Origin: Actinomyces johnsonii
Lineage (GTDB): Bacteria > Actinomycetota > Actinomycetes > Actinomycetales > Actinomycetaceae
Reading direction: 5' to 3'
Assembly (NCBI RefSeq): GCF_006546835.1
Contig: NZ_VICB01000004.1
Coordinates: 186,001 to 250,000, forward strand
Length of the DNA: 64,000 bases
Every line of letters begins with the position of its first letter. The first letter of the stretch is position 1. Positions 37,274 to 57,854 of this stretch are shown here, one piece after another. The translations under genes were made by a program, and so were the position numbers. Below the pieces are notes generated by a model. It searched no databases and was not told the DNA's origin. It saw only the letters and a list, made by a program, of their open reading frames with translations.

Positions 37274-37960
37274 TCAGGCGACCATCTCCCGGTAGCGGTG
37301 GACCACCAGCTCGGCGACCGCCGGGTGGTCGCCGATGGGAGCGGCCACGACATCGGCGCCCGTGGAGTGCAGGGCCCGGTGGAAACGCCCCTCCGCCAGC
37401 AGGTAGGTGGCCACGCCCACCCGCCTGGCACCCCGGGCCCGGGCCGTGCTCACCGCGTCACGGACGCCGGGGCGCGCACCCGAGAGGTAGGCGGGCGTAA
37501 CTCTGCGCCCCAGACGCGCCTCGAGCAAGCAGGTGATGGCCTCAACCTCCTCCAGCGCTGCCGCCTGACGCGATCCGGCCGCGCCCAGGACGACATGATC
37601 TAGCCCTGCGATTCCGCCCAGGGGAGTGGATGCCTCGTGAAGCCGCTGCGCGACGGCCTCCACCAGGTGCTCCTCGACCCCCAGGTGTTCGGTGACCGTC
37701 CCCGATCCGTGCCGGTCCACCGCGGCCGGTACGTCATTGAGGACGTGATAGCCGCGGGCCAGGAAGAAGGGCAGCACCACCGGATCCACCAGCCCCTCGA
37801 GCGCCGTGGCCGGGTCCGGGGGCTGGAGTTCGATGTAGCCGGTGCGCACCTCCACTCCCGGCAGGATCGTGCGGACGCGCTCGGCGGTACTGAACATGAC
37901 TGAGGACGGCCCGGGTCGGCGCGAGCCGTGGGCGAGCAGTACCAGAGGACGGGTACTCAT
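37274..37960 (-). CDS. CbiX/SirB-type sirohydrochlorin chelatase
   Basis: Expected to insert Fe2+ into sirohydrochlorin (or Co2+ into its analogue), the last step to siroheme. The 228-residue protein has the metal-site His in LLAHGSRRPG (H11), VVLPFFLARGYHVLNDVP, and a second half starting HVVLGAAGSRQAAALEEV. This is the double-domain layout common in actinobacteria. It is the last gene of the sulfate-assimilation operon, whose sulfite reductase needs siroheme. The start overlaps the upstream permease stop (ATGA). Iron specificity is inferred from context. Confidence 0.85.
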   Translation of the reverse strand: MSTRPLVLLAHGSRRPGPSSVMFSTAERVRTILPGVEVRTGYIELQPPDPATALEGLVDPVVLPFFLARGYHVLNDVPAAVDRHGSGTVTEHLGVEEHLVEAVAQRLHEASTPLGGIAGLDHVVLGAAGSRQAAALEEVEAITCLLEARLGRRVTPAYLSGARPGVRDAVSTARARGARRVGVATYLLAEGRFHRALHSTGADVVAAPIGDHPAVAELVVHRYREMVA

Positions 37961-39000
37961 ACCGGCTCCACCACCAGATCTGCGTGCGTGCGAGAACGGG
38001 CCGGCTCGACCGGCGTCGGCCCGACGGGACCACCGGCGGTGATCGGATCGTCCGGTGCGGCGGCCCCAGGTGCGCGGTCGTGCCGGTGGGTGGATCGGAC
38101 CTCCTTAAGCGCCTGATCGGTCTCCTCGCGGACGTCCTTGGCGGTAGTCCGCGCCTTGCGGACCGCCAGAGCCAGGAAGGCCGCCCACACCGCCCCGAGT
38201 GCGCCGTACAACAGGACCCCAGTCCGGGCTGAGGACCCGGCCCAAGACAGCAGGACACGCAGGTTCGTGGCCAGGATCAGACCGCCGACGGCAGTGCCCA
38301 GCACCGTTCCGGGCAGACGGGAGACCAGCCAAGCGGCGACCGGTGCAGCCACCAGCCCGCCGGCCAGCAGGGCCAGGACGATCCCGAGGCTGATGCCCGC
38401 CGTTCCCAGGCCGGTGAGGAAACCGGCCGAGGCCGCCACTGTCACGAGGAACTCCGAGGCCCCCACCGAGCCGACCACTGTGCGCGGTGCCGTGCGACCG
38501 CCAGTGAGCAGGGTTGTTGTCACCACCGGACCCCAGCCGCCACCGCCGGTGGCGTCGACGAAACCGCCCACCAGCCCCAGGGGAACCAGGAGCCGCCTGC
38601 CGTGCGGGGAGCGCCGGCTACCAGAGCCTCGGGGCGGGCGCAGGGCGAAACGCCCCAGAACATAGGCCCCCAGCAGGATCAGCAGGCTCGCCGTCACCGG
38701 GGTCGCCGCGCGGGTCGACAGGTGTGACAGGACTGTGGCGCCGCTGAAGGCCCCCACCGCACCGGGCAGCCCCAGCCGGACCACCAGGCGGGGGTCGGTG
38801 TTGCCCAACCGCCAGTGGGAGGCCCCCGAGGCCAGGGTCGTGCCGATCTCAGCCAGGTGCACCGAGGCCGAGGCCAGTGCCGGACTCAGCCCGGCCAGAA
38901 GCAGCAGGGAGGACGAGGTCATGCCGTACCCCATCCCGAGGGCGCCGTCGACCAGCTGAGCGGCCAAACCGACGAGGGTGAGAAGAACAAGCTTGCGCAT
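37957..39000 (-). CDS. TauE/SafE-family sulfite/anion permease
   Basis: Integral membrane protein, 347 residues with eight or nine hydrophobic segments. The family N-terminal repeat AAQLVDGALGMGYGMTSSSLLLLAGLSP is present and is repeated as VGGFVDATGGGGWGPVVTTTLLTG. A hydrophilic tail of about 60 residues follows the last segment. Family members move sulfite, sulfonates or other sulfur anions. Within this operon, export of excess sulfite or uptake of a sulfur anion are both reasonable. The start at 39000 follows GGAG on the minus strand. A longer frame upstream is not needed. Overlaps cbiX by ATGA. Confidence 0.85.
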   Translation of the reverse strand: MRKLVLLTLVGLAAQLVDGALGMGYGMTSSSLLLLAGLSPALASASVHLAEIGTTLASGASHWRLGNTDPRLVVRLGLPGAVGAFSGATVLSHLSTRAATPVTASLLILLGAYVLGRFALRPPRGSGSRRSPHGRRLLVPLGLVGGFVDATGGGGWGPVVTTTLLTGGRTAPRTVVGSVGASEFLVTVAASAGFLTGLGTAGISLGIVLALLAGGLVAAPVAAWLVSRLPGTVLGTAVGGLILATNLRVLLSWAGSSARTGVLLYGALGAVWAAFLALAVRKARTTAKDVREETDQALKEVRSTHRHDRAPGAAAPDDPITAGGPVGPTPVEPARSRTHADLVVEPV

Positions 39001-39041
39001 CAGTGACTCCAGGACGTTCGGTCTGCATGTGCCGAGGCGGG

Positions 39042-39824
39042 TTAGGCGGCGGGATTCGCCGGCCGGGTCACCTCGACGACTCGGTCGGCCCAGTACGGGC
39101 TCAGGGTGACGACGTCGCCGATGACGATGACCGCGGGGGCGGTCACGCCGTACCGGGCGGCGACGTCGGCCAGACATCGCAGCTCGGTGGTGGTCACGCG
39201 CTGGTCGGGGTGGTAGCCGCGCTCGATGATCGCCGCCGGAGTGGCCGCGTCGCTGCCGGCCTCCAGCAGGGAGGCGACTGAGTCCCGCAGCCGGGAGACC
39301 CCCATGAGCAGGATGAGGGTGTGATCGCGGCGCTGGGGGAGCACCCCGAGATCCGCATGGGCCGTGATGACTGAGAAACCGCGCGACAGCCCCCGGTGGG
39401 TGACGGGGATCCCTGCCGCGGCGGGCACGGCGATGGCACTGGTGATCCCCGGAACGACCTCGACGGCGACACCGGCCTTGCGGCAGGCGGCGGCCTCCTC
39501 TCCGCCGCGCCCGAGCACATAGGGATCGCCGCCCTTGAGACGGACCACCCCTTTGCCGCGGCCGGCCAGGTCGACCAGGAGCGCATCGATCTCTTCCTGG
39601 CTCATGACGTGCCGGCCGCGCCGCTTGGAGGCGTCGATGACCTCGGTATCGGGTCCAAGGTCCTCCAGGAGGTCCCGGGGCGCCAGCGCGTCGACGACGA
39701 CCACGTCCGCCAGGCCCAACAGCTCCAGGCCGCGGGCGGTGATGAGACCGCTGCTGCCCGGGCCACCGCCCACCAACGCCACCCAGCCGGCGGTGGCGGC
39801 GTGGGGGGAGAACTCGCGGGGCAT
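39042..39824 (-). CDS. cobA: Uroporphyrinogen-III C-methyltransferase (SUMT)
   Basis: SAM-dependent methyltransferase converting uroporphyrinogen III to precorrin-2, the branch to siroheme. The 260-residue protein has ALVGGGPGSSGLITARGLELL at the N-terminus and VRLKGGDPYVLGRGGEEA with the SAM-binding Gly loop. VVPGITSAIAVPAAAGIPVTHRG and ILLMGVSRL follow. It is the single-domain form and lacks the CysG-type oxidase/chelatase part. The separate CbiX downstream would provide the chelatase, and no precorrin-2 dehydrogenase is in the operon. It lies three bases after cysN. Confidence 0.92.
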   Translation of the reverse strand: MPREFSPHAATAGWVALVGGGPGSSGLITARGLELLGLADVVVVDALAPRDLLEDLGPDTEVIDASKRRGRHVMSQEEIDALLVDLAGRGKGVVRLKGGDPYVLGRGGEEAAACRKAGVAVEVVPGITSAIAVPAAAGIPVTHRGLSRGFSVITAHADLGVLPQRRDHTLILLMGVSRLRDSVASLLEAGSDAATPAAIIERGYHPDQRVTTTELRCLADVAARYGVTAPAVIVIGDVVTLSPYWADRVVEVTRPANPAA

Positions 39825-39827
39825 GCC

Positions 39828-41186
39828 TCAGCTCCTGCCTGGGGAAGCGGCCGCACCCGGTTCACTGCTGCCAGCGCCCGCCAGCTGCACCATGCCCGCC
39901 CCGAGTGTGCCGCCCTCGTGGGCGTCGATGAGGAGGAAGGCGCCGTCGGACCGTGAGACCGAATAGTCGGCCAACGGCACCGGCGAGGCCAGACGCAGCC
40001 GCACCAGGCCGATGTCATTGAGCTCAAGAGCATCCGCCGGCACCGTGGTCAGGTCGTCCAGGTCGAGGCGGCCCTCAATGGTGCGCACGATCGCCTGGAC
40101 CGTCTGGGCACCGTGCTTGAGCAGCACCCGCTCCCGGGGGCGCAGGGACTCCTCGCTCAGCCAGGACACGCGGGCGGAGACCTCGGTGAGCACTTGGGGC
40201 GCGTCGCCCGCCGCGGCCAGGGTGTCGCCACGGGCGACGTCGACGTCGTCAGCCAGACGAACCGTCACCGACTGGCCCTCGACGGCCTCCTCCAAGCTGC
40301 GCTCGCCCAGGTCGATGCCGGTCACGCGCGATCGCCTGCCCGAGGGCAGGACCACGACGGGGTCGCCGACACGTACCGTGCCTGAGGTGATCTGCCCGGC
40401 GTAGCCGCGGTAGTCGCGCAGCTCGGGCCTCGGCGCCGCACCCTGGGGGCGGATGACCAGCTGGACCGGGAGACGGAAGGAGCCCTCATCGCGGGCGGTG
40501 GGCAGGGACTCCAGAAGCCCCAGCAGGGTCGGCCCCTCGTAGAAGGGCGTGCCGGCCGAGGCCTCGACGATGTTGTCCCCCAGGAGCGCGGAGGTAGGAA
40601 GGACATGGATCTCGGCCACACCCAGCTCCGCGGCCACGGCGCGGATATCGGCCTCGATGGCGGTATAGACCTCGGCGGAGAAGTCCACCAGGTCGATCTT
40701 GTTGACCGCGACGATGACGTGCGGGACCCGCAGGAGGGCGGCGACCGCCAGGTGGCGGCGTGTCTGCTCCAGGACCCCGTTGCGGGCGTCCACCAGCAGC
40801 ACGACGACGTCGGCCGTGGAGCAGCCGGTGACCGTGTTGCGGGTGTACTGCACGTGCCCGGGGCAGTCAGCCAGGATGAAGGAGCGCTGCGGGGTGGCGA
40901 AGTAGCGGTAGGCGACGTCGATCGTGATGCCCTGCTCCCGCTCGGCCCGCAGCCCGTCGGTCAGCAGTGCGAGATCGGCACTGGTCAGCCCCCTGTCCAG
41001 GCTGACCTGCTCGACGGCGGCCAGCTGGTCTCGCAGGACGGACTTGGAGTCGAACAGCAGGCGGCCCACGAGCGTGGACTTGCCGTCGTCGACGCTGCCG
41101 GCCGTGGCCAGTCGCAGCAGCGAGCCGGTGGCGGCGGCGCGCGCCTCGGCCTCGGCGGGGATATCGGTGAGGGTGGGGGTGCTCAT
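39828..41186 (-). CDS. cysN: Sulfate adenylyltransferase subunit 1 (GTPase) CysN
   Basis: EF-Tu-like GTPase that drives ATP + sulfate to APS with CysD. The 452 residues include Walker A GSVDDGKST at 30-38, DCPGH at 107-111 and NKID at 162-165. The domain-2 beta barrel begins near FRLPVQLVIRPQG. There is no APS-kinase (CysC) extension, which fits the APS-type reductase encoded upstream. Its ATG overlaps the cysD stop by one base. Confidence 0.95.
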   Translation of the reverse strand: MSTPTLTDIPAEAEARAAATGSLLRLATAGSVDDGKSTLVGRLLFDSKSVLRDQLAAVEQVSLDRGLTSADLALLTDGLRAEREQGITIDVAYRYFATPQRSFILADCPGHVQYTRNTVTGCSTADVVVLLVDARNGVLEQTRRHLAVAALLRVPHVIVAVNKIDLVDFSAEVYTAIEADIRAVAAELGVAEIHVLPTSALLGDNIVEASAGTPFYEGPTLLGLLESLPTARDEGSFRLPVQLVIRPQGAAPRPELRDYRGYAGQITSGTVRVGDPVVVLPSGRRSRVTGIDLGERSLEEAVEGQSVTVRLADDVDVARGDTLAAAGDAPQVLTEVSARVSWLSEESLRPRERVLLKHGAQTVQAIVRTIEGRLDLDDLTTVPADALELNDIGLVRLRLASPVPLADYSVSRSDGAFLLIDAHEGGTLGAGMVQLAGAGSSEPGAAASPGRS

Positions 41187-42196
41187 CAGAAGTAGCCCTC
41201 CTTCTTGCGGTCCTCCATGGCCGCCTCGCTCAGGCGGTCATCGGCGCGGGTGGCTCCCCGCTCGGTCAGGGTGGAAGCGGCGACCTCCAGGACGATGTCG
41301 TGGTTGGTGGCGGCGTCGGACTCGACGGCGCCCGTGCAGGACATGTCGCCCACGGTGCGGTATCGCACCGTGCGAGTAACCACCTGCTCACCGGCGCGCA
41401 GCGCGTTGACGCCGCCGGCCGCCAGCCACATCCCGTCACGCAGGAAGACCTCGCGCTCATGGGCGTAGTAGAGGTCGGGCAGGGAGATGTCCTCGCGCTC
41501 GATGTAGCGCCACACGTCGAGCTCGGTCCAGTTGCTCAAGGGGAAGACCCGCACGTGCTCCCCGGGACGGTGACGGGGATTGAGCAGATTCCACAGCTCG
41601 GGGCGCTGGTTGCGCGGGTCCCACTGGCCGAACTCGTCACGCAGGGAGACGATGCGCTCCTTGGCCCGGGCCTTCTCCTCGTCGCGGCGTCCGCCGCCGA
41701 AGACGCCGTCGAAGCCGCCCTCCTCGATGGCGTCGAGAAGCGGGATTGTCTGGAGAGGATTGCGTGTGCCGTCGGTGCGCTCGCGCAGACGGCCGTCGTC
41801 GATGTAGTCCTGGACGCGGGCCACCACCAGCCGCAGGCCGAGGTCTTCGACCGTCTGGTCGCGGTAGGCCAGCACCTCGGGGAAGTTGTGACCGGTGTCC
41901 ACGTGCAGGACGGGGAAGGGGATCGGAGCGGGCCAGAAGGCCTTGCGCGCCAGGTGCAGCATGACCACGGAGTCCTTGCCTCCGGAGAACAGCAGGACGG
42001 GGCGGCGGCATTCGGCGGCGATCTCCCGGATGACGAGGATGGCCTCGGCCTCCAGGACGTCAAGAATGCCCAGGGCCTCGGCGGCCATAGGGGCCTCGGA
42101 AAGGTCGGCGAGACCGGACGGTTCGAGGTCCGGCGCCTGAATGGGGTCAGGGGAGGGGGCAGGGGCCGGCTGGGTGTGGGTCAGGGTGATGCTCAT
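41186..42196 (-). CDS. cysD: Sulfate adenylyltransferase subunit 2 CysD
   Basis: PP-loop subunit of ATP sulfurylase, 336 residues. The nucleotide loop is SGGKDS at 71-76, followed by VLHVDTGHNFPEVL and FGGGRRDEEKARAKER. The C-terminal end is EAAMEDRKKEGYF, a family hallmark. The first 45 residues are proline-rich and not conserved. The start at 42196 forms an ATGA overlap with the cysH stop. A much longer frame upstream only runs through cysH in another phase. Confidence 0.95.
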   Translation of the reverse strand: MSITLTHTQPAPAPSPDPIQAPDLEPSGLADLSEAPMAAEALGILDVLEAEAILVIREIAAECRRPVLLFSGGKDSVVMLHLARKAFWPAPIPFPVLHVDTGHNFPEVLAYRDQTVEDLGLRLVVARVQDYIDDGRLRERTDGTRNPLQTIPLLDAIEEGGFDGVFGGGRRDEEKARAKERIVSLRDEFGQWDPRNQRPELWNLLNPRHRPGEHVRVFPLSNWTELDVWRYIEREDISLPDLYYAHEREVFLRDGMWLAAGGVNALRAGEQVVTRTVRYRTVGDMSCTGAVESDAATNHDIVLEVAASTLTERGATRADDRLSEAAMEDRKKEGYF

Positions 42197-42987
42197 AGGT
42201 GGATTCCGCATTCTGTCTTGGTGAATCCGGCCCAGCGGCCGGAACGGGGATCGTCTCCGGGTTTGACTCGCGCTGTGCACGGGGCGCAGCCGATCGAGGG
42301 GTATCCGTCGTACAGGAGGGGGTTGATGAGCACGCCGTGCTGGTCGGCGTAGCCGGTCAGGTCCTCCATGCTCCAGGCGGCCAGGGGGTTGATCTTGACG
42401 ATCTCGTGAGTGGAGTCCCAACCGACCAGGGGCGTGTGGGTGCGGGTGGGGGCGTCCTCTCGGCGCACCCCGGTGGCCCACGCCTCGTAGCTGCTCAGGG
42501 CCCGGGCCAGTGGCTCGACCTTGCGCAGACGGCAGCAGGCGACCGGGTCTCGCGACCACAAGTCCGGTCCGTAGAGCTCGTCCTGCTCGGCCACGGTCAG
42601 CTCGGGCGTCACGTCGACGACGGTGACGTCCATGGTGGCGGCCACCGCGTCGCGGGTGCCCATGGTCTCCGCGAAGTGGTACCCGGTATCCAGGAAGAGG
42701 ACGTCGACACCGGGAAGGACCCGGGAGACCACGTGAGGCAGGACGGCATCGGCCATGGAGCAGGCCACGGCGAGTGTGTCGGGGAAGTTCTGGGCCGCCC
42801 ACTGGACGACGTCGAGGGCAGGGGCATCGTCACCGAGCTCGCGCGCGCCGGCCTCGGCCAGGGCACGCAGCTCCTGCGTAGATCGCAGCGGAGCCCGGCC
42901 TGTGCCCTGAGACTTCGGGGCGACAGCAGGATCGTGGCGTGGCAGGTCCAGGTGCACCCGGGTGCCCTTAGCGGTAACGGCGCTCAC
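42193..42987 (-). CDS. cysH: Assimilatory APS/PAPS reductase CysH
   Basis: Thioredoxin-dependent reductase giving sulfite from adenylyl sulfate, 264 residues. It has the cysteines of the [4Fe-4S]-type (APS) class: C151-C152 (VACCRLRKVEPL) and C234/C237 (GCAPC). The catalytic tail is ECGIHL with C260. LFLDTGYHFAET is the PP-loop-side motif. The lack of an APS kinase in the operon agrees with APS as substrate. Its ATG overlaps the sulfite reductase stop. Confidence 0.94.
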   Translation of the reverse strand: MSAVTAKGTRVHLDLPRHDPAVAPKSQGTGRAPLRSTQELRALAEAGARELGDDAPALDVVQWAAQNFPDTLAVACSMADAVLPHVVSRVLPGVDVLFLDTGYHFAETMGTRDAVAATMDVTVVDVTPELTVAEQDELYGPDLWSRDPVACCRLRKVEPLARALSSYEAWATGVRREDAPTRTHTPLVGWDSTHEIVKINPLAAWSMEDLTGYADQHGVLINPLLYDGYPSIGCAPCTARVKPGDDPRSGRWAGFTKTECGIHL

Positions 42988-44687
42988 TGCAGGGCCTCCT
43001 CATCGGCTCGGTGCGCCCACTGGGCGAAGGTCTCCTCGGGAATGCGCTGATCCAGGTACCGGCGCACCAGGCGCTCGACGTAGTCGGTCAGGTCGGAGGC
43101 GGGAACCTTGAGGCCCCGCACCGTACGGCCCAGGCCGGCCTCGGCGCGTCCGTCGGCTGCCAGGCCACCGCCCAGGTGCACCTGGAAGCCGGGCACCTGC
43201 TCGCCGTCGACCGTGATGATCTGGCCCTTAAGGCCGATGTCCGCGATCTGGATACGGGCGCAGGAGTTCGGGCAGCCGTTGACGGTCAGGGTGATGCGCC
43301 GCTCGAGGTCGGTGTCGGCCAGGCGAGCATCGAGCTCGGACGATACGCGCGCCGCCAGCTTCTTGGTCTCCACGATCGCGAACTTGCAGAACTCCAGTCC
43401 GGTGCAGGCCAGGGTCGAGCGGGTGAAAGCGCCCGGATTGGGATCGAGCCCCAGCTCTCGCAGGCCGGCGACGGCGTCGTCGACTTTGTCAGCCGGTACG
43501 TCCAGGAGCAGCAGGTTCTGCAGAGGGGTAGTGCGCACCCGGTCTGAGCCGACCCTGCCGGCCAGGTCGGCCAGGCCCAGCAGGACGTCGCCGCTCAACC
43601 GGCCGACGGGTGGCTTGGCCCCCACCCAGAAGCGGCCGTCCTTCTGCTCGTGGACGCCGATGTGGTCGGAGTCCCCGCTTGGCTCCTCAGGTGCCGGGCC
43701 GTCGGGCAGGGTGCGTCCCAGGTAATCCTCCTGGAGGACCTGGCGGAACCTCTCCGGCCCCCACTCGGCCATGAGGAACTTCAGTCGGGCCTTGTTGCGC
43801 AGGCGACGGTACCCGTAGTCGCGGAAGATGCGGATGACGCCGTACCAGACGTCGAGGGCGTCCTCCGGCGTGACGAAGGCCCCCAGCCGCTGGCCCAGAC
43901 GTGGGGCGGTGGACAGGGCGCCTGCCACCCACAGGTCGTAGCCGGGACCGAGCTCGGGGTGGTTGACGCCGACGAAGGAGATGTCGTTGATCTCGTGGAG
44001 GATATCGAGGCTGGGGGAGCCGGTGATGGCGGTCTTGAACTTGCGGGGCAGATTGGCCAGGTCGGGGTCGCCCAGGTAGGTATCCTTGATGGCCCGTGCC
44101 AGCGGGGTCGGATCGATGACCTCGTCCTTGGCGATGCCGGCCACCGGGGAGACCAGGAACCCCCGGGGCGTGTCCCCGCAGCCCTCGATCGTAGTCAGAC
44201 CCACCGACTCCAGGCGCTGCCACAGCTCGGGCACACTGCCGATCTCCACCCAGTGGAGCTGAATATTCTGGCGATCGGTGATGTCGGCGGTGCCGCGGGC
44301 GAAGTCGTTGGAGACCGAGCCCAGCACGTGAAGCTGCTCGCGGCTCAGGCTCCCACCGTCCAGACGCACCCGCTGCAGGAAGTAGCGGTCGGAGAGCTCG
44401 GAGGCGTCCAGCCGGGCCGTACGGCCGCCGTCGATCCCCTGCTTGCGCTGGGTGTACAGACCCCACCAGCGGAAACGGCCGTTGAGGTCGTCGGGGGCGA
44501 TGGTCTCGTAGCCGCCTGGGCCGTAGGTGTTCACGATCCGCTCGCGTACCGCCAGCGGGGACCCGTCCTGTTTGAAGGCTTCGTTGTCATTGAGCGGCTT
44601 ACGCCCGTCGAGGGCCCACTGGCCGTTCGACTGGGCCTTGCGCGGTGGGCGCACGGTGCGGGCAGGTGGCGTGACGGTGGTGGTCAT
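42984..44687 (-). CDS. sirA: Ferredoxin-type sulfite reductase (siroheme, 4Fe-4S)
   Basis: Reduces sulfite to sulfide with six electrons, 567 residues. The siroheme/[4Fe-4S] cysteines are TLACTGLEFCKF (about 427-433) and NGCPNSCARI (about 471-475). Earlier motifs include RYFLQRVRLDGG, DITDRQNIQLHW and TTIEGCGDTPRGF. The start at 44687 is preseded by GGAGGAG on the minus strand; an upstream in-frame ATG (44720) has no such site. It is the first structural gene of the operon. Nitrite-reductase relatives share these motifs, so the sulfite call rests on the cysHDN context. Confidence 0.93.
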   Translation of the reverse strand: MTTTVTPPARTVRPPRKAQSNGQWALDGRKPLNDNEAFKQDGSPLAVRERIVNTYGPGGYETIAPDDLNGRFRWWGLYTQRKQGIDGGRTARLDASELSDRYFLQRVRLDGGSLSREQLHVLGSVSNDFARGTADITDRQNIQLHWVEIGSVPELWQRLESVGLTTIEGCGDTPRGFLVSPVAGIAKDEVIDPTPLARAIKDTYLGDPDLANLPRKFKTAITGSPSLDILHEINDISFVGVNHPELGPGYDLWVAGALSTAPRLGQRLGAFVTPEDALDVWYGVIRIFRDYGYRRLRNKARLKFLMAEWGPERFRQVLQEDYLGRTLPDGPAPEEPSGDSDHIGVHEQKDGRFWVGAKPPVGRLSGDVLLGLADLAGRVGSDRVRTTPLQNLLLLDVPADKVDDAVAGLRELGLDPNPGAFTRSTLACTGLEFCKFAIVETKKLAARVSSELDARLADTDLERRITLTVNGCPNSCARIQIADIGLKGQIITVDGEQVPGFQVHLGGGLAADGRAEAGLGRTVRGLKVPASDLTDYVERLVRRYLDQRIPEETFAQWAHRADEEALQ

Positions 44688-44825
44688 TGCTCCTCCATGA
44701 CGGTGGCGTGTCATTGGCACGTGAGGAGCGTCCGGGGCGGCCTGGTGCGCGCTGCTGCGTACAGAGTCTGCAGAGCCGTTCGGTTGGCGTCAGCCGTCTC
44801 AACGGGGCCTTCCGGACGCTTCATT

Positions 44826-44874
44826 GCGCCGGATACCTCGTTGCGGGGGTTGAAGTCCCCGTGGTGTCAGGCGC
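44826..44874 (-). promoter_or_regulatory. Nested hairpin after the cysteine leader peptide
   Basis: On the minus-strand RNA, GCGCC (44870-44874) pairs with GGCGC (44826-44830), enclosing an inner stem CGGGG/CCCCG (44857-44861 with 44844-44848). It begins four bases after the leader stop, so a ribosome stalled at the Cys codons would affect its folding. A further 9-bp pair, 44812-44820 with 44727-44735, lies between it and the sulfite reductase gene. Confidence 0.5.
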
Positions 44875-44877
44875 TGG

Positions 44878-44964
44878 TCAGGCCCGACAACACATGACCG
44901 CGTGAGCACGCAGAATGTCAGCGGGATAAACACCGCTGAAAAGAGCTGCGTGAGAGAAGGTCAT
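44878..44964 (-). CDS. Leaderless cysteine-attenuator leader peptide (28 aa, ends CCRA)
   Basis: A short frame upstream of the sulfur operon, too short for ordinary gene calling. It reads MTFSHAALFSGV, then YPADILRAHAVMCCRA, then TGA (44878-44880). Two adjacent TGT codons are the third- and fourth-last sense codons. The ATG lies exactly seven bases after TATTGT (44972-44977), where transcription should begin, so the mRNA would start with this codon and need no ribosome site. Cysteine-rich leaderless ORFs before cys genes are known cysteine-responsive attenuators in mycobacteria. The RAHAVMCCR end resembles such actinobacterial leaders. Likely role: sense cysteinyl-tRNA and control sirA-cysHDN expression. 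Confidence 0.75.
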   Translation of the reverse strand: MTFSHAALFSGVYPADILRAHAVMCCRA

Positions 44965-44971
44965 GGCCGAA

Positions 44972-45000
44972 ACAATAGCGACGGGTTTATCTGACAGCAA
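44972..45000 (-). promoter_or_regulatory. Promoter of the sulfur-assimilation operon
   Basis: On the minus strand, TTGCTG (45000-44995) and TATTGT (44977-44972) are separated by exactly 17 bases, a good sigma-70-type fit. The expected start point is 44964-44965, at the ATG of the leader peptide. Confidence 0.7.
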
Positions 45001-45055
45001 GCAAGAACGATGTGTGCTTCCAGTCACGAGGTCGTTGCCAGGGGCGATCTTTTTT

Positions 45056-45101
45056 GCGTAAGCGAGCGAAAAAATGGCGGCCTTACGCGGGACATGTCCC
45101 G
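45056..45101 (-). terminator. Inverted repeats after proC
   Basis: GCGTAAG (45056-45062) pairs with CTTACGC (45082-45088), directly followed by the perfect 14-bp palindrome CGGGACATGTCCCG (45088-45101). Runs of A and T (45050-45055, 45069-45074) flank the first stem. It probably ends the proC transcript. The palindrome could also be a protein site upstream of the sulfur-operon promoter. Confidence 0.5.
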
Positions 45102-45156
45102 TCGGCGCGCGAAAATGGTTGGGAGCGGGGTGGGACCTGCCGGCTCGCGTTCGCGG

Positions 45157-45981
45157 CTACGCGCCCAGCTCGCGATCCCGTTCGACGATGGCCTCGAAGG
45201 CGCGTACGACGGCGTCGGAGAAACCGGCACGCTCCAGGGCCACCATGCCGGCCACCGAGGTGCCGCCGGGGGAGCAGACCGCGTCGATGAGGTCAGCCGG
45301 GGTGCGGCCGTGCCCGCCCTCGGTGGTGCGCTGGGCCTCGGTCTGTACGGTACGGGCAGTCCCCAGCACCGCCTGGGCCACGATCTGGACGGCCAGGGCC
45401 TTGGGGATGCCGCCCATGACGCCGGCGCGCGCCAAGGCATCGACGAAGGCGCACACCAGGGCGGGGGAGGAGCTCGCCAGACCGATGAAGGAGGAGAAGT
45501 CCTTCTCCTCCAGGATCACAGTGCGCCCGATGGACTCCATGAGGGTGCGCACCGTCTCCAGGTCGTGAGCACCCACGTTGCGCCCCGGGGCCAGCGCCGT
45601 CATCGACTCGCCCACGGCCGCCGCCATATTCGGCATGGTGCGCACCACCCGGGTGCCGTCGGGCAGCATCGACTCGAGACGCTCGAGCGTGAGACCGGCC
45701 GCGATGGAGACCACCAGGGGTTTGCTGCGGCCGATGGCTTCGGACAGGCGGGTCAGGACGGTGGGGATGACGTAGGGCTTGAGGCCCAGGATGAGGACGT
45801 CGCTACGCAAGACCAGATCGGCGGCGTCGGGCACGTGGACGGCCCCGACCTGGGCAGCCAGGCGCTCAGCGGAGCCGTGCTTGCTGGTGAGAAGCAGGTG
45901 CCCGGCCGGCGTTCCCGCGGCCACCGCCCCCCGCACGATCGCGCTGACCATGTTGCCGGCACCGATGAAACCGATCCGCAT
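45157..45981 (-). CDS. proC: Pyrroline-5-carboxylate reductase
   Basis: Final enzyme of proline synthesis, reducing pyrroline-5-carboxylate with NAD(P)H. The 274-residue protein begins with the Rossmann motif RIGFIGAGNMVSAIVRG. It has VLILGLKPYVIPTVL, VVSIAAGLTLERLES and RTMPNMAAAVGESMTAL. The C-terminal signature is DLIDAVCSPGGTSVAGM, the substrate-binding region. It appears to be a single-gene unit on the minus strand. Confidence 0.94.
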   Translation of the reverse strand: MRIGFIGAGNMVSAIVRGAVAAGTPAGHLLLTSKHGSAERLAAQVGAVHVPDAADLVLRSDVLILGLKPYVIPTVLTRLSEAIGRSKPLVVSIAAGLTLERLESMLPDGTRVVRTMPNMAAAVGESMTALAPGRNVGAHDLETVRTLMESIGRTVILEEKDFSSFIGLASSSPALVCAFVDALARAGVMGGIPKALAVQIVAQAVLGTARTVQTEAQRTTEGGHGRTPADLIDAVCSPGGTSVAGMVALERAGFSDAVVRAFEAIVERDRELGA

Positions 45982-46119
45982 GAGGGCCTCCTGCTCGTCT
46001 GTGATGTGAGACCAACACGGTACCGCGCCGGTGCCCCGGACGGAGCGACTTCCGGGGAGTCGGGTGTCTGGTGCCGCAGGGACCTCGCCCCGTGCGGCAC
46101 GCGCAGCATCCGGTTCGCC

Positions 46120-54535: not shown

Positions 54536-54902
54536 CAGGTATGTCCAGCCACCAGGATTCTCGGCTTGTATCGCGATGGAACACGTGAAAGGGTGCGGCA
54601 CCGAATCATCATCTCCGGTTGAAGGAGCCTCAACAACTTTCTGCATAGGGACGGGCATCAGTATTCCCCCTGTGCTCCAGGTCTCATGATGAGCGATTCG
54701 AGTGCTATTATCAGCCGTGGAAACTCGGCCCCTGAGACCCATGTGATTGAAAAACTGAACTGTTTCTGGGACGGGCTGTTACTGCTGAGCGGCAGCACAC
54801 AGTTTCCGCTGAAACACTCCAGATTTCCCCCGCGGACGGACCTCAGTGTCGAGGTCCATCCGGTATCCCATTCGGCTCCCCCCTCCAACGAAAGAGACCC
54901 TT
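54536..54902. other. Gap before cas3: repeat copy C and probable cas promoter region
   Basis: 54630-54674 (TCAACAACTTTCTGCATAGG onward) is a divergent third copy of the intergenic repeat found around the aldo/keto reductase. TTGAAA at 54747-54752 has no matching -10. GTTTC-CGCT-GAAAC (54802-54815) is a small palindrome that could be an operator. No CRISPR repeat, leader or gene is visible here. The sequence is less GC-rich than its surroundings. Confidence 0.45.
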
Positions 54903-57854
54903 GTGACGCTCTCGGAGCAAGCCCGATCCGCGTGGGCCAAATTCGGCTACAACCCCGAGAATCGCCACTGGCTCCCCCTCTGGCTGCATCTGCTCGACGC
55001 CGCTGCGGTGGCCGAGCACCTCGCCAGACGCTGGCTGGCGCCCACCGTCTGCGAACTCATTGAGCGCGAGTTCGAGGACTCCGACTCAGGACTGACCCCG
55101 GTGGAAGAGTTCTGTCTGCTCGCCTCCTGGATCGCCGGTGTGCACGACATCGGCAAGTGCACCCCGGCCTTCTCCGTCCAGGTCCCGGGACTGGACGACC
55201 GCATGAAGGAGGCAGGGCTGATCCACGAGCCGGTGGATCCTCTCGAACGGCGCAAGGTACCGCACGCCCTGGCTGGGCACTTGATCCTGGAGAACTGGCT
55301 TATGGACGGGCACGGTTGGGACCTTGAACCCGCCGAGGCCCTCGCCTCCGTCGTCGGCGCCCATCATGGCATCCCGCCCACGACGGCGGCTCTCACCACC
55401 GACTACTACGGGCATGAGCACCTCCTCGGCGAGGATGAGACGTGGAGCGCGACCCGCCGCGAGCTCCTCGAACTCGTCACACGACGCACCGGCGCCGCGG
55501 CTCTTCTTCCTCACTGGGCGCGCCACCGATGGTCCCAGCCCTTCCTTGTGGAGCTCTCGGGGCTGCTCATCGTCTCGGACTGGATCGCCTCGACCGAAGC
55601 CTATTTCCCGCTGCTGCCCCTCCAGGACGATGGTGCGCGCCTGCTCGCGCCCGACGCCCATACCCTTCGTGTGGCCACCGGCCTGTCGCGTCTGGAGATC
55701 CCCGCGCCATGGCGTCCCTGCGACGAGGGCACCGCTCCCGGCTGCCTGCTCACCAGCCGTTTCAACCTGCCCGACGATGCCCGCGCCACCGACGTCCAGG
55801 TGCGCACACTCCAGGCCGCCCGCTCCATGGGCCTGCCGGGCATGCTCATCGTCCAGGAGTCCGCGGGAGGAGGGAAGACCGAGGCGGCCCTTATGGCCGC
55901 CGAGGTGCTCGCCGCCCGCACTCGCCGCTCCGGAATCCTCTTCGCCCTACCCACCCAGGCGACGACAGACGCCATGTTCTCTCGCGAGCTCGACTGGCTG
56001 GAGAGTATTGAGCAGGCCTACGCCGACGAGGGAGCGCCGTCGGAGTTCGCCGCTCAGCTCCTGCACGGACGGTCTCGACTCAACAAGGAGGCCCAGCTTC
56101 TGCGACGCCGCGGTTACGAGATCCGCGACCGGCTCCTCGGATCGCTCGACGACTCGACCGGCGAGACCCCACGCCCTATCGGGATCGGATGGGATGAGGA
56201 GGAGGCTCGAACGGGCCGTGCCGCAGACTCCGAGGACGGCCGCAGAGCCGACCTGGCGATCCTGGCCTGGTTCAGTGGGCGCAAGAAGTCGATGCTGTCG
56301 GACTTCGTCGTCACCACCGTGGACCACCTGCTGTTCGGGGCAATGCGTTCCCCGCATCTGGCCATGCGACACCTGGGACTGTCCCGCAAGGTCGTCATCG
56401 TCGACGAGGTGCACTCCTACTCCACGTACATGAACGTCTACCTGGACCGGGTCCTGACCTGGCTCGCAGCCTACGGGGTTCCGGTGGTGCTCCTGTCGGC
56501 CACACTGTCCGAGGCCCGCTGCTCGGCCATGGTCGACGCCTACCGACGGGGCCTGCGCCTGGCAGTGGGGGAGCGTGTCCACCGTCGTCCCGCCCCCGAG
56601 AACGTGCACACTCCCTTCCCCTGCCTGGTCACTGCTGGTGAAGATCGCATCGAGGTCGTCCCGACCGCGTCGGGACGACGCAGCACAGTGCGGATCAGAC
56701 GGCTTACGAAGGATGCTCTGATCCCGCTCTTGGAGGAGGGCCTCGTCGATGGCGGCTGCGCGTTGGTGGTCCGCAATACGGTGCGGCGCGCCCAGGAGAC
56801 CTATGAGCGGCTGCGCGAGCACTTCGGCGAGGACGTCAGTCTCAACCACGCCCGGTTCACGATCGGCGACCGGCTCGCCAAGGACAAGGATCTTCTCAAC
56901 CGCTTCGGCCCTCCGCGCAAGGCTGGAAAGCGCCCGAGCAGAGCCATCGTCGTCGCCACCCAGGTCGTCGAGCAGTCCCTCGACGTCGATTTCGACCTGC
57001 TCGTCACTGACCTCGCTCCCATCGACCTGGTTCTCCAGCGTATGGGACGCCTGCACCGTCACCAGCGGCGGCGGCCGCCCCGACTTGCCGAGCCCGCCTG
57101 CTACATCGACTGCCTGCCGTCGACGTCGTCCCCCGAGCCCTCGTTGGAACCGGGGGCCAAGGCGATCTACGGCGAGCAGGACATGCTCATGAGCGCGGCC
57201 GCACTGGACCGGGTGATCGACGGCTCCGGCATCGTCACGGTTCCCGACGATGTCCACGACCTCATCGAGGCCGTCTACGGTCCCGATGCCCCAGTGCCGC
57301 CGTCGTGGAAGGAAGCCGTCGACCGAGCTCGGGAGACATACGCGACGAGCAACCGTGCGAAGCATGAGGCCGCTCAGGGTTTTCTTCTGAATGAGCCCGA
57401 GCGGAGAGGGAAGAGTGCCTCCCTGATCGGCTGGCTGCACGTGACGGCCTCCGACAACGAGGAGAGGGGACGCGCCCAGGTCCGCGACGGCGAGGACTCC
57501 CTCGAGGTCATCCTCCTGGACCTGCGCCGGGTAGGCGGCCAGGAGGAGCTGCGCACCCTGCCATCCGCACCGGAGGCTCCAGGAGCCATGATCCCCACAG
57601 ACCGCGCCCCGGACAAGAAGATCGCCCGCGCCATGGCCTTGTCCGCCGTGAGGCTGCCTCCGCGCCTGAGCAATCCGCACCGGATTGACCAGGTCATCGA
57701 TGAGCTGGAGAAATGCGTCGTGCCCGCTTGGCAGGATGATCCGCAGCTCCGAGGACAGCTGTTCCTTCTCCTGGATGAGGGCCGGGCGCAACTGGCCGAC
57801 ACCGTACTCGAGTACTCCCCATCCACCGGACTCAAGGAGGTCCAATCAGAATGA
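54903..57854 (+). CDS. cas3: CRISPR-associated helicase/nuclease Cas3 (type I-E)
   Basis: Effector that is recruited by Cascade and degrades invading DNA. The 983-residue chain has an N-terminal HD nuclease domain (H29 in WLHLLDAAAVAEHL, HD at 81-82 in GVHDIGKCTPAF, then VVGAHHG). A superfamily-2 helicase follows: Walker A GGGKT 322-326, DEVH 501-504, SATLSEARC, QVVEQSLDVDFD and QRMGRLHRH. The start is the GTG at 54903 because the longer frame from 54846 has no ribosome site. The end overlaps casA by ATGA, so it is the first gene of a single cas transcript. There is no fused Cas2 domain. Confidence 0.95.
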   Translation: MTLSEQARSAWAKFGYNPENRHWLPLWLHLLDAAAVAEHLARRWLAPTVCELIEREFEDSDSGLTPVEEFCLLASWIAGVHDIGKCTPAFSVQVPGLDDRMKEAGLIHEPVDPLERRKVPHALAGHLILENWLMDGHGWDLEPAEALASVVGAHHGIPPTTAALTTDYYGHEHLLGEDETWSATRRELLELVTRRTGAAALLPHWARHRWSQPFLVELSGLLIVSDWIASTEAYFPLLPLQDDGARLLAPDAHTLRVATGLSRLEIPAPWRPCDEGTAPGCLLTSRFNLPDDARATDVQVRTLQAARSMGLPGMLIVQESAGGGKTEAALMAAEVLAARTRRSGILFALPTQATTDAMFSRELDWLESIEQAYADEGAPSEFAAQLLHGRSRLNKEAQLLRRRGYEIRDRLLGSLDDSTGETPRPIGIGWDEEEARTGRAADSEDGRRADLAILAWFSGRKKSMLSDFVVTTVDHLLFGAMRSPHLAMRHLGLSRKVVIVDEVHSYSTYMNVYLDRVLTWLAAYGVPVVLLSATLSEARCSAMVDAYRRGLRLAVGERVHRRPAPENVHTPFPCLVTAGEDRIEVVPTASGRRSTVRIRRLTKDALIPLLEEGLVDGGCALVVRNTVRRAQETYERLREHFGEDVSLNHARFTIGDRLAKDKDLLNRFGPPRKAGKRPSRAIVVATQVVEQSLDVDFDLLVTDLAPIDLVLQRMGRLHRHQRRRPPRLAEPACYIDCLPSTSSPEPSLEPGAKAIYGEQDMLMSAAALDRVIDGSGIVTVPDDVHDLIEAVYGPDAPVPPSWKEAVDRARETYATSNRAKHEAAQGFLLNEPERRGKSASLIGWLHVTASDNEERGRAQVRDGEDSLEVILLDLRRVGGQEELRTLPSAPEAPGAMIPTDRAPDKKIARAMALSAVRLPPRLSNPHRIDQVIDELEKCVVPAWQDDPQLRGQLFLLLDEGRAQLADTVLEYSPSTGLKEVQSE

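Follow-up and report, generated by a model that had tools for sequence, protein, structure and literature searches.

The window analysed here, a 64,000-nucleotide stretch of Actinomyces johnsonii DNA, carries on its minus strand a short reading frame sited upstream of a cysteine/sulfur assimilation operon, as judged from the location of cysI and from NCBIfam and Pfam matches (Table 1). Seven genes of this operon run in one direction and overlap or are separated by a 3-nt gap wherever their starts are clear. NCBIfam nitrite/sulfite reductase models match the product of the first gene, cysI, below their cut-offs, so that its specificity for sulfite is deduced from the neighbouring genes. The true start of cysD probably lies near 42.2 kb, as homology begins at residues 237-247 of the frame, and the coordinates of the exporter gene describe the longest frame, which opens inside the preceding gene and has an uncertain start. 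Elsewhere in the window, a large plus-strand ORF (54846-57854) resembles, by eye from its translation, a CRISPR-associated Cas3 helicase.

Table 1. Features of the cys leader and of the downstream operon (positions in the window; all on the minus strand)
Feature	Position	Strand	Remarks
Predicted promoter	44972..45000	-	-35 TTGCTG 45000-44995, N17, -10 TATTGT 44977-44972
Leader ORF	44878..44964	-	28 codons, MTFSHAALFSGVYPADILRAHAVMCCRA-stop; ATG at 44964
Cys-Cys codons, putative regulatory	44887..44892	-	TGT TGT, near leader ORF stop
Block 1	44882..44889	-	TGTCGGGC; over Cys2-Arg-Ala codons; 6-8 bp with block 2 in 28/28
Block 2	44865..44874	-	GCGCCTGACA; 3 nt past stop; possible partners: blocks 1 and 3
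Small GC hairpin	44844..44861	-	sequence variable; between blocks 2 and 3; in forced-helix structures
Block 3	44826..44833	-	TCCGGCGC; near-invariant (L014 differs); possible partners: blocks 2 and 4
Block 4	44812..44819	-	GCGTCCGG; invariant 28/28; can pair with block 3 or 5
Block 5	44728..44735	-	CCGGACGC, with variants; near SD; 9 contiguous bp with block 4
Anti-SD	44723..44729	-	GCTCCTC; overlaps 3' end of block 5; 7 bp with GAGGAGC
cysI Shine-Dalgarno (SD)	44689..44696	-	GGAGGAGC; ahead of cysI ATG 44687
cysI / NirA-type sulfite reductase	42984..44687	-	first operon gene; Pfam NIR_SIR, NIR_SIR_ferr above cut-off
cysH, (phospho)adenylyl-sulfate reductase	42193..42987	-	NF002537 above cut-off; PF01507
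cysD reading frame	41186..42802	-	TIGR02039 above cut-off
cysN, sulfate adenylyltransferase large subunit	39828..41186	-	TIGR02034 above cut-off
Uroporphyrinogen-III C-methyltransferase (siroheme synthesis)	39042..39824	-	TIGR01469 above cut-off
TauE/SafE-family sulfite exporter	37957..39177	-	PF01925 above cut-off; no NCBIfam match
CbiX-family sirohydrochlorin chelatase-like protein	37274..37960	-	PF01903 above cut-off; NCBIfam matches below cut-off

A preliminary description of this DNA had proposed a TTGCTG-N17-TATTGT promoter and a 28-codon frame ending in VMCCRA-stop 190 nt before cysI, and we obtained the same coordinates and translation. On the minus strand the leader ATG is located 7 nt downstream of the -10 hexamer, and the cysI ATG follows 190 nt past the leader stop. 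The promoter hexamers agree with the consensus in 3 and 4 of their 6 positions, and a consensus promoter scan of 44000-46000 found none, the leader promoter included. A leaderless start is predicted because the -10 element is placed 6-7 nt ahead of the leader start codon in all 28 genomes compared. The hairpins had been described as starting four bases past the leader stop, which needs correction: the 5' arm of the first hairpin (block 1) consists of codons before the stop, namely the second cysteine codon (Cys2), the Arg codon and most of the Ala codon, and its 3' arm (block 2) follows the stop after a 3-nt gap. The leader RNA folds better than shuffled sequences (z -3.26, with 1 of 200 shuffles as good). 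On the plus strand, a terminator-like hairpin with a T run (45028-45051) is situated between the leader promoter and proC. On the minus strand, the AUGACC with which the leader opens (44959-44964) is complementary to GGUCAU (44894-44899), immediately ahead of the Cys codons; a helix of this type of at least 5 bp was found in 26 of 28 genomes and could gate re-initiation at the leader.

Within the genus, cysI is present in 28 of 49 genomes searched. The preliminary description had suggested looking for conservation of the CCR end in relatives, and in each of these 28 genomes the leader indeed ends in MCC[RQ]A, five of them having one extra residue; the residue after Cys-Cys is Arg in 10 and Gln in 18. 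The peptides begin with M-T throughout, and their middle is variable, on which ground a functional small protein was rejected. Translation would start at ATG in 26 leaders and at GTG in two. The distance from TANNNT to the start codon is exactly 7 nt in 26 of the 28 and 6 nt in the other two (L028 and L029), and a TTG -35 element with a 17-18 nt spacer is found in 20. In all genomes the Cys run near the stop is minimal, with two adjacent residues; Cys2 is invariably encoded by TGT, Cys1 by TGT (23) or TGC (5). When a leaderless-type frame was defined as TANNNT 5-9 nt before ATG or GTG, carrying CC or CxC, such a frame was found upstream of cysI in 28/28 genomes, compared to 0.06 loci in total expected from dinucleotide shuffles. 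The leader upstream of cysI is not a product of chance, but real and conserved. Its exact motif ATGTGYTGYCRGGC-N7-GCGCCTGA occurs once per genome in the 28 cysI-bearing genomes and in none of the 21 genus genomes without cysI; allowing up to three mismatches added seven further places, all at three mismatches. Among 213 genomes of the family, a search for CysI (E up to 1e-60) returned the same 28 only, in 1 of 36 genera. The closest named relative found was Actinomyces naeslundii NCTC 10301 (L100), whose CysI is 97% identical.

Alignment of the 28 sequences revealed that conservation skips the middle of the peptide and continues past the stop, with block 1 reading TGTC[AG]GGC. Five blocks can be recognised which may pair alternately with each other and finally, via a sequence flanking block 5, with the cysI SD or start codon. 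Each of the resulting five helices is represented by a contiguous match of at least 5 bp in 28/28 loci; these lengths are the longest contiguous matches within windows, and short helices are partly expected by chance. The core of block 2, GCGCCTGA, is invariant in 28/28, and its spacing from the Cys codons is constant. TGT at Cys2 is the form which fits block 2, and the Arg/Gln exchange (CGG/CAG) leaves the base in question paired with block 2, by G-U or A-U, among 21 distinct rows. The longest contiguous 2:3 pairing measures 5 bp, except for 9 bp in L014, and that of 3:4 ranges from 5 to 9 bp; the sequence changes in L014 keep both helices at 9 bp each. For 4:5 the range is 6-12 bp, with only 6 bp in L018, L022, L023 and L026, the match in L026 falling outside the block 5 core. 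Stems resembling the small GC hairpin between blocks 2 and 3 are visible by eye in other rows of the alignment, and this hairpin is absent from the RNAalifold consensus.

The flank of block 5 matches the SD or the start codon of cysI over 5-7 bp in all 28 loci. The partners differ: GCUCCUC pairs with the SD in L002-L010, CCU(C/U)CAG pairs with the SD in L018, L022 and L023, and GCUCAUG pairs with CAUGAGC over the start codon in L017, L019, L021, L024 and L025. Summed over 13 representatives, the complementarity between flank and ribosome-binding site amounted to 209, compared to 143.9 (sd 6.7) for randomised flanks, none of 400 of which reached this value. Taken singly, L013, L026 and L028 are unremarkable.

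A ribosome was taken to extend about 16 nt from the first base in its P site to its leading edge. Placed with Cys2 in the A site, it would cover block 1 and end 2-3 nt before block 2; placed at the leader stop, it would cover block 2. A 26-nt ribosome mask is used in PMC13236596. Nascent RNA ending before block 4 was folded with ribosomes at these positions, on native sequences and without a shuffle control. With the ribosome stalled at the Cys codons the probability of helix 2:3 rounded to 1.00 in 28/28; with the ribosome at the stop it was 0.00, a consequence of masking block 2; with no ribosome its mean was 0.12, exceeding 0.5 in L013, L014 and L027.

Forcing the alternative helices revealed how they might act on cysI. 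Opening the region from SD to AUG cost 5.91 kcal/mol on average with 2:3 and 4:5 forced, compared to 9.35 kcal/mol with 3:4 forced, and was easier with 2:3 and 4:5 in 27 of 28 loci and harder in L012. Mean SD accessibility was 0.44 in the former and 0.20 in the latter state; mean accessibility of the start codon hardly changed (0.48 vs 0.47) and fell in the naeslundii group. In 14 representatives of the 28 loci the difference in opening energy was 4.03, which dropped to 0.97 when the block 5 flanks were shuffled. In 8 of these 14, no more than 1 of 15 shuffles reached the observed value; the other six were not exceptional singly, and in L022 the value was reached by 7 of 15 shuffles.

The view of the locus as a cysteine attenuator, put forward in the preliminary description, is supported in that the predicted leaderless start, the position of the Cys codons and the alternative RNA pairings all fit. 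We conclude that the leader is probably a cysteine-responsive attenuator which acts on translation. From the leader and its conservation, the blocks with their complementarities and the folding predictions, all of which are computed, we infer the following course of events. Transcription would begin at the leader AUG, and a ribosome would translate the 28 codons of this leaderless message. With ample Cys-tRNA, it would reach the stop, where its leading edge lies over block 2, or depart, whereupon 1:2 would form. With block 2 covered or engaged in this way, 3:4 would form and block 5 would stay free, so that its flank, GCUCCUC in the present sequence, could pair with the cysI SD and cysI would be poorly translated. 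With scarce Cys-tRNA, the ribosome would wait at the Cys-Cys codons, covering block 1 with its edge 2-3 nt before block 2; 2:3 would then form before block 4 has been made, leaving block 4 free to take block 5. The 4:5 helix would draw off the anti-SD, open the ribosome-binding site and allow translation of cysI. On balance, and with somewhat less assurance than for the attenuator as such, we favour a five-link relay (1:2, 2:3, 3:4, 4:5, 5:SD/AUG) which would pass the position of the ribosome over ~190 nt to the cysI start, its core being fixed and its last link apparently rebuilt clade by clade as an anti-SD or anti-start-codon sequence. Downstream genes may be reached by overlap or translational coupling; an extension of the control to all seven genes is plausible, since their reading frames overlap or nearly touch.

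Several results do not favour such a relay. An unforced equilibrium simulation left mean SD accessibility unchanged between states (0.22, 0.23, 0.21 and 0.21). In this simulation the search for block 5 picked out the SD in place of the block in L002-L014, hit a wrong site in L023 and gave no match in L026; the 4:5 and 5:SD values of these loci were set aside. In 23 of 28 loci, the RNA beyond a stalled ribosome is more stable with 3:4 than with 2:3 plus 4:5. Because 3:4 is mostly the more stable and mean SD accessibility does not change at unforced equilibrium, the proposed switch would need co-transcriptional capture of 2:3. Covariation was tested on 21 of 22 distinct rows, L026 being dropped on account of an indel. 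It is absent for 1:2 and 3:4, as blocks 1-4 are nearly invariant, and was not seen per column for the pairing of block 5 with the ribosome-binding site (5:6). For 4:5 it is modest, with a score of 0.107 vs 0.080 that was reached by 3 of 500 controls, and with three pairs changed on both sides, a value reached by 136 of 500 controls; this control leaves the relatedness among genomes in place. RNAalifold predicted 16 consensus pairs for 24 distinct segments, with both sides changed in none of them.

The output is most likely initiation of cysI translation by uncovering of the SD or start codon rather than an intrinsic terminator, which is disfavoured as no U-tract terminator was listed on the leader strand in a scan of 44000-46000; the two terminator-like sites in this region are both on the plus strand and upstream of the leader promoter. 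A riboswitch or T-box was rejected, as Rfam gave no match in the window and three hits far below the gathering score, all on the plus strand. Attenuation by cysteine might also operate through termination of another kind, Rho-dependent or not: a finished leader would leave the spacer of ~190 nt bare and transcription would stop before cysI, which a stalled ribosome or helix 2:3 would prevent. Such a mechanism seems unlikely to us. The spacer is C-rich by eye, and Rho-dependent termination was proposed for cys leaders without terminators by Seliverstov et al. 2005 (PMC1262725). However, besides the missing U-tract terminator, termination does not require that the block 5 flank match the SD or start codon, a match found in 28/28 loci and, in the 13 representatives together, beyond randomised flanks. 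Both processes, termination and a translational switch, could act together.

That the product rather than the translation of the leader matters, as a functional small peptide or as an arrest peptide whose end VMCC[RQ]A would act in the ribosome tunnel without any sensing of tRNA supply, is very improbable. Within the peptide, conservation resides in the last residues, but the nucleotides encoding them are those which pair with block 2: the Arg/Gln swap keeps this pairing, Cys2 is always the TGT that fits block 2 whereas Cys1 varies, and conservation runs on beyond the stop. Blocks 3 and 4 form an imperfect, nearly invariant inverted repeat (TCCGGCGC-N6-GCGTCCGGA), so that blocks 3-5 might instead be DNA operator repeats for a protein regulator, with an incidental leader. 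We give this idea hardly any credence, as it leaves unexplained block 2 and its fixed distance from the Cys codons, the anti-SD and anti-AUG flanks, and the sequence changes in L014, which leave 2:3 and 3:4 with 9 bp each.

A covariance model of the leader was searched against the 213 genomes of the family (E up to 0.1), and the matches held credible were the 28 cysI leaders and one further match (E 4.4e-6). The latter was found in G018, a genus member without cysI, before the gene for an ABC transporter ATPase (L099:3907-4103). This relative encodes a peptide end MCCRP-stop with TGC at Cys2; blocks 3-5 are kept, blocks 1 and 2 have changed together (UGCCGG:CCGGUG), and a GCUCA:UGAGC pairing lies over the start codon. 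No clear leaderless promoter was seen at the G018 copy. By eye, the transporter is possibly one for amino-acid or cystine uptake. The block 3/4 signature was present in none of the 29 other transporter loci examined, of 49 other matches, and G018 alone among the loci examined has it. The sole other leaderless Cys-ORF among these transporter loci (L196) was rejected since its peptide end is not the Cys-Cys stop motif. Eight of the weaker matches in the family were examined (L091-L098) and had no Cys-Cys leader by eye. Among 396 genomes of the order (E up to 0.01), seven matches represent the cysI leaders of the genus, and 12 weak ones examined (L210-L221) had no Cys-Cys leader by eye.

Outside the genus, leaderless-type Cys-rich frames were found at 12 of 76 named cysI loci, in Isoptericola, Antribacter, Myceligenerans, Oerskovia, Sanguibacter, Sediminihabitans, Luteimicrobium, Promicromonospora and Cellulosimicrobium. 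In comparison with shuffles this corresponds to 12 of 75 loci vs 0.15 expected, the truncated L131 being left out. Among the best 30 cysI loci of other genomes of the order, 11 have such frames; by family label, these are 6/6 in f8, 4/5 in f13 and 1/2 in f12, with 0/17 in f5, f7 and f19 (L239 of f12 and L243 of f7 are truncated). Sixty further loci, including the truncated L297, added eight frames, 7/20 in f8 and 1/4 in f14, the latter (L295) being doubtful because of the long distance between its Cys pair and the stop; the other labels gave 0/36, including 0/3 in f13. The named and the order sets overlap, and their counts are not additive. Several of the non-genus leaders carry CGCGCCTGAC, the same sequence as in block 2, directly after the stop. 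In alignments of the f8 lineage, CUCAG/CUGAG repeats and a helix like 1:2 spanning the stop are seen; both sides changed in 0 of 19 consensus pairs, and we do not claim the full relay for f8. A different leaderless-type Cys leader, ending PGCRCR, PGCCCRCC or PGCRCRCH, was observed at the f13 loci L224, L226, L227 and L229.

Leaderless polycysteine short ORFs reportedly act as attenuators of mycobacterial cys operons (Canestrari et al. 2020, Mol Microbiol 114:93), and several operons of M. smegmatis are said to carry such leaders. Actinomyces and the mycobacteria belong to different orders of the Actinomycetota. The leader described here resembles the mycobacterial attenuators in being a short Cys-ending ORF, here predicted to be leaderless, before a cysteine-pathway operon. 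Unlike these, it has two adjacent Cys codons and five conserved, alternately pairing blocks linking them to a ribosome-binding site ~190 nt away, and the exact motif occupies one locus per genome as compared to several operons in M. smegmatis. The mycobacterial attenuators are mentioned in passages of PMC13236596 and PMC9094748, the former of which, citing Canestrari et al. 2020, describes the cysteine genes of M. smegmatis as regulated by translation attenuation, an output that we likewise propose for Actinomyces. In passages on cys leaders, the study of Seliverstov et al. 2005 (PMC1262725) predicts them in Mycobacterium, in Propionibacterium acnes and before cbs of Bifidobacterium longum; these passages report no conserved terminator hairpins, give the mode of action as unknown, and name no leader for A. 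naeslundii, which was among the study genomes. Ours is like those leaders as they are presented there, in that Cys codons come shortly before the stop of a small ORF preceding cys genes, and differs from them by its conserved pairing blocks.

In the open-access literature searched, we found no earlier account of this leader for Actinomyces or related organisms. Translation attenuation by a Cys leader is already known; new is the whole path of alternately pairing blocks to the cysI ribosome-binding site, together with the further hosts. As this path from the Cys codons can be read from the sequence and predicted block by block, the proposed mechanism is directly testable, and the leader may serve to recognise sulfate assimilation that is under cysteine control, both in Actinomyces and, by way of related leaders, in certain other actinobacteria. 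In classical transcription attenuators of the trp/his type, the ribosome at hungry codons chooses between 2:3 and 3:4. The position of the ribosome on the Actinomyces leader would make the same choice; unlike in the trp/his type, neither a terminator nor a U tract was found here, and the links 4:5 and 5:SD/AUG would turn the choice into initiation of translation.
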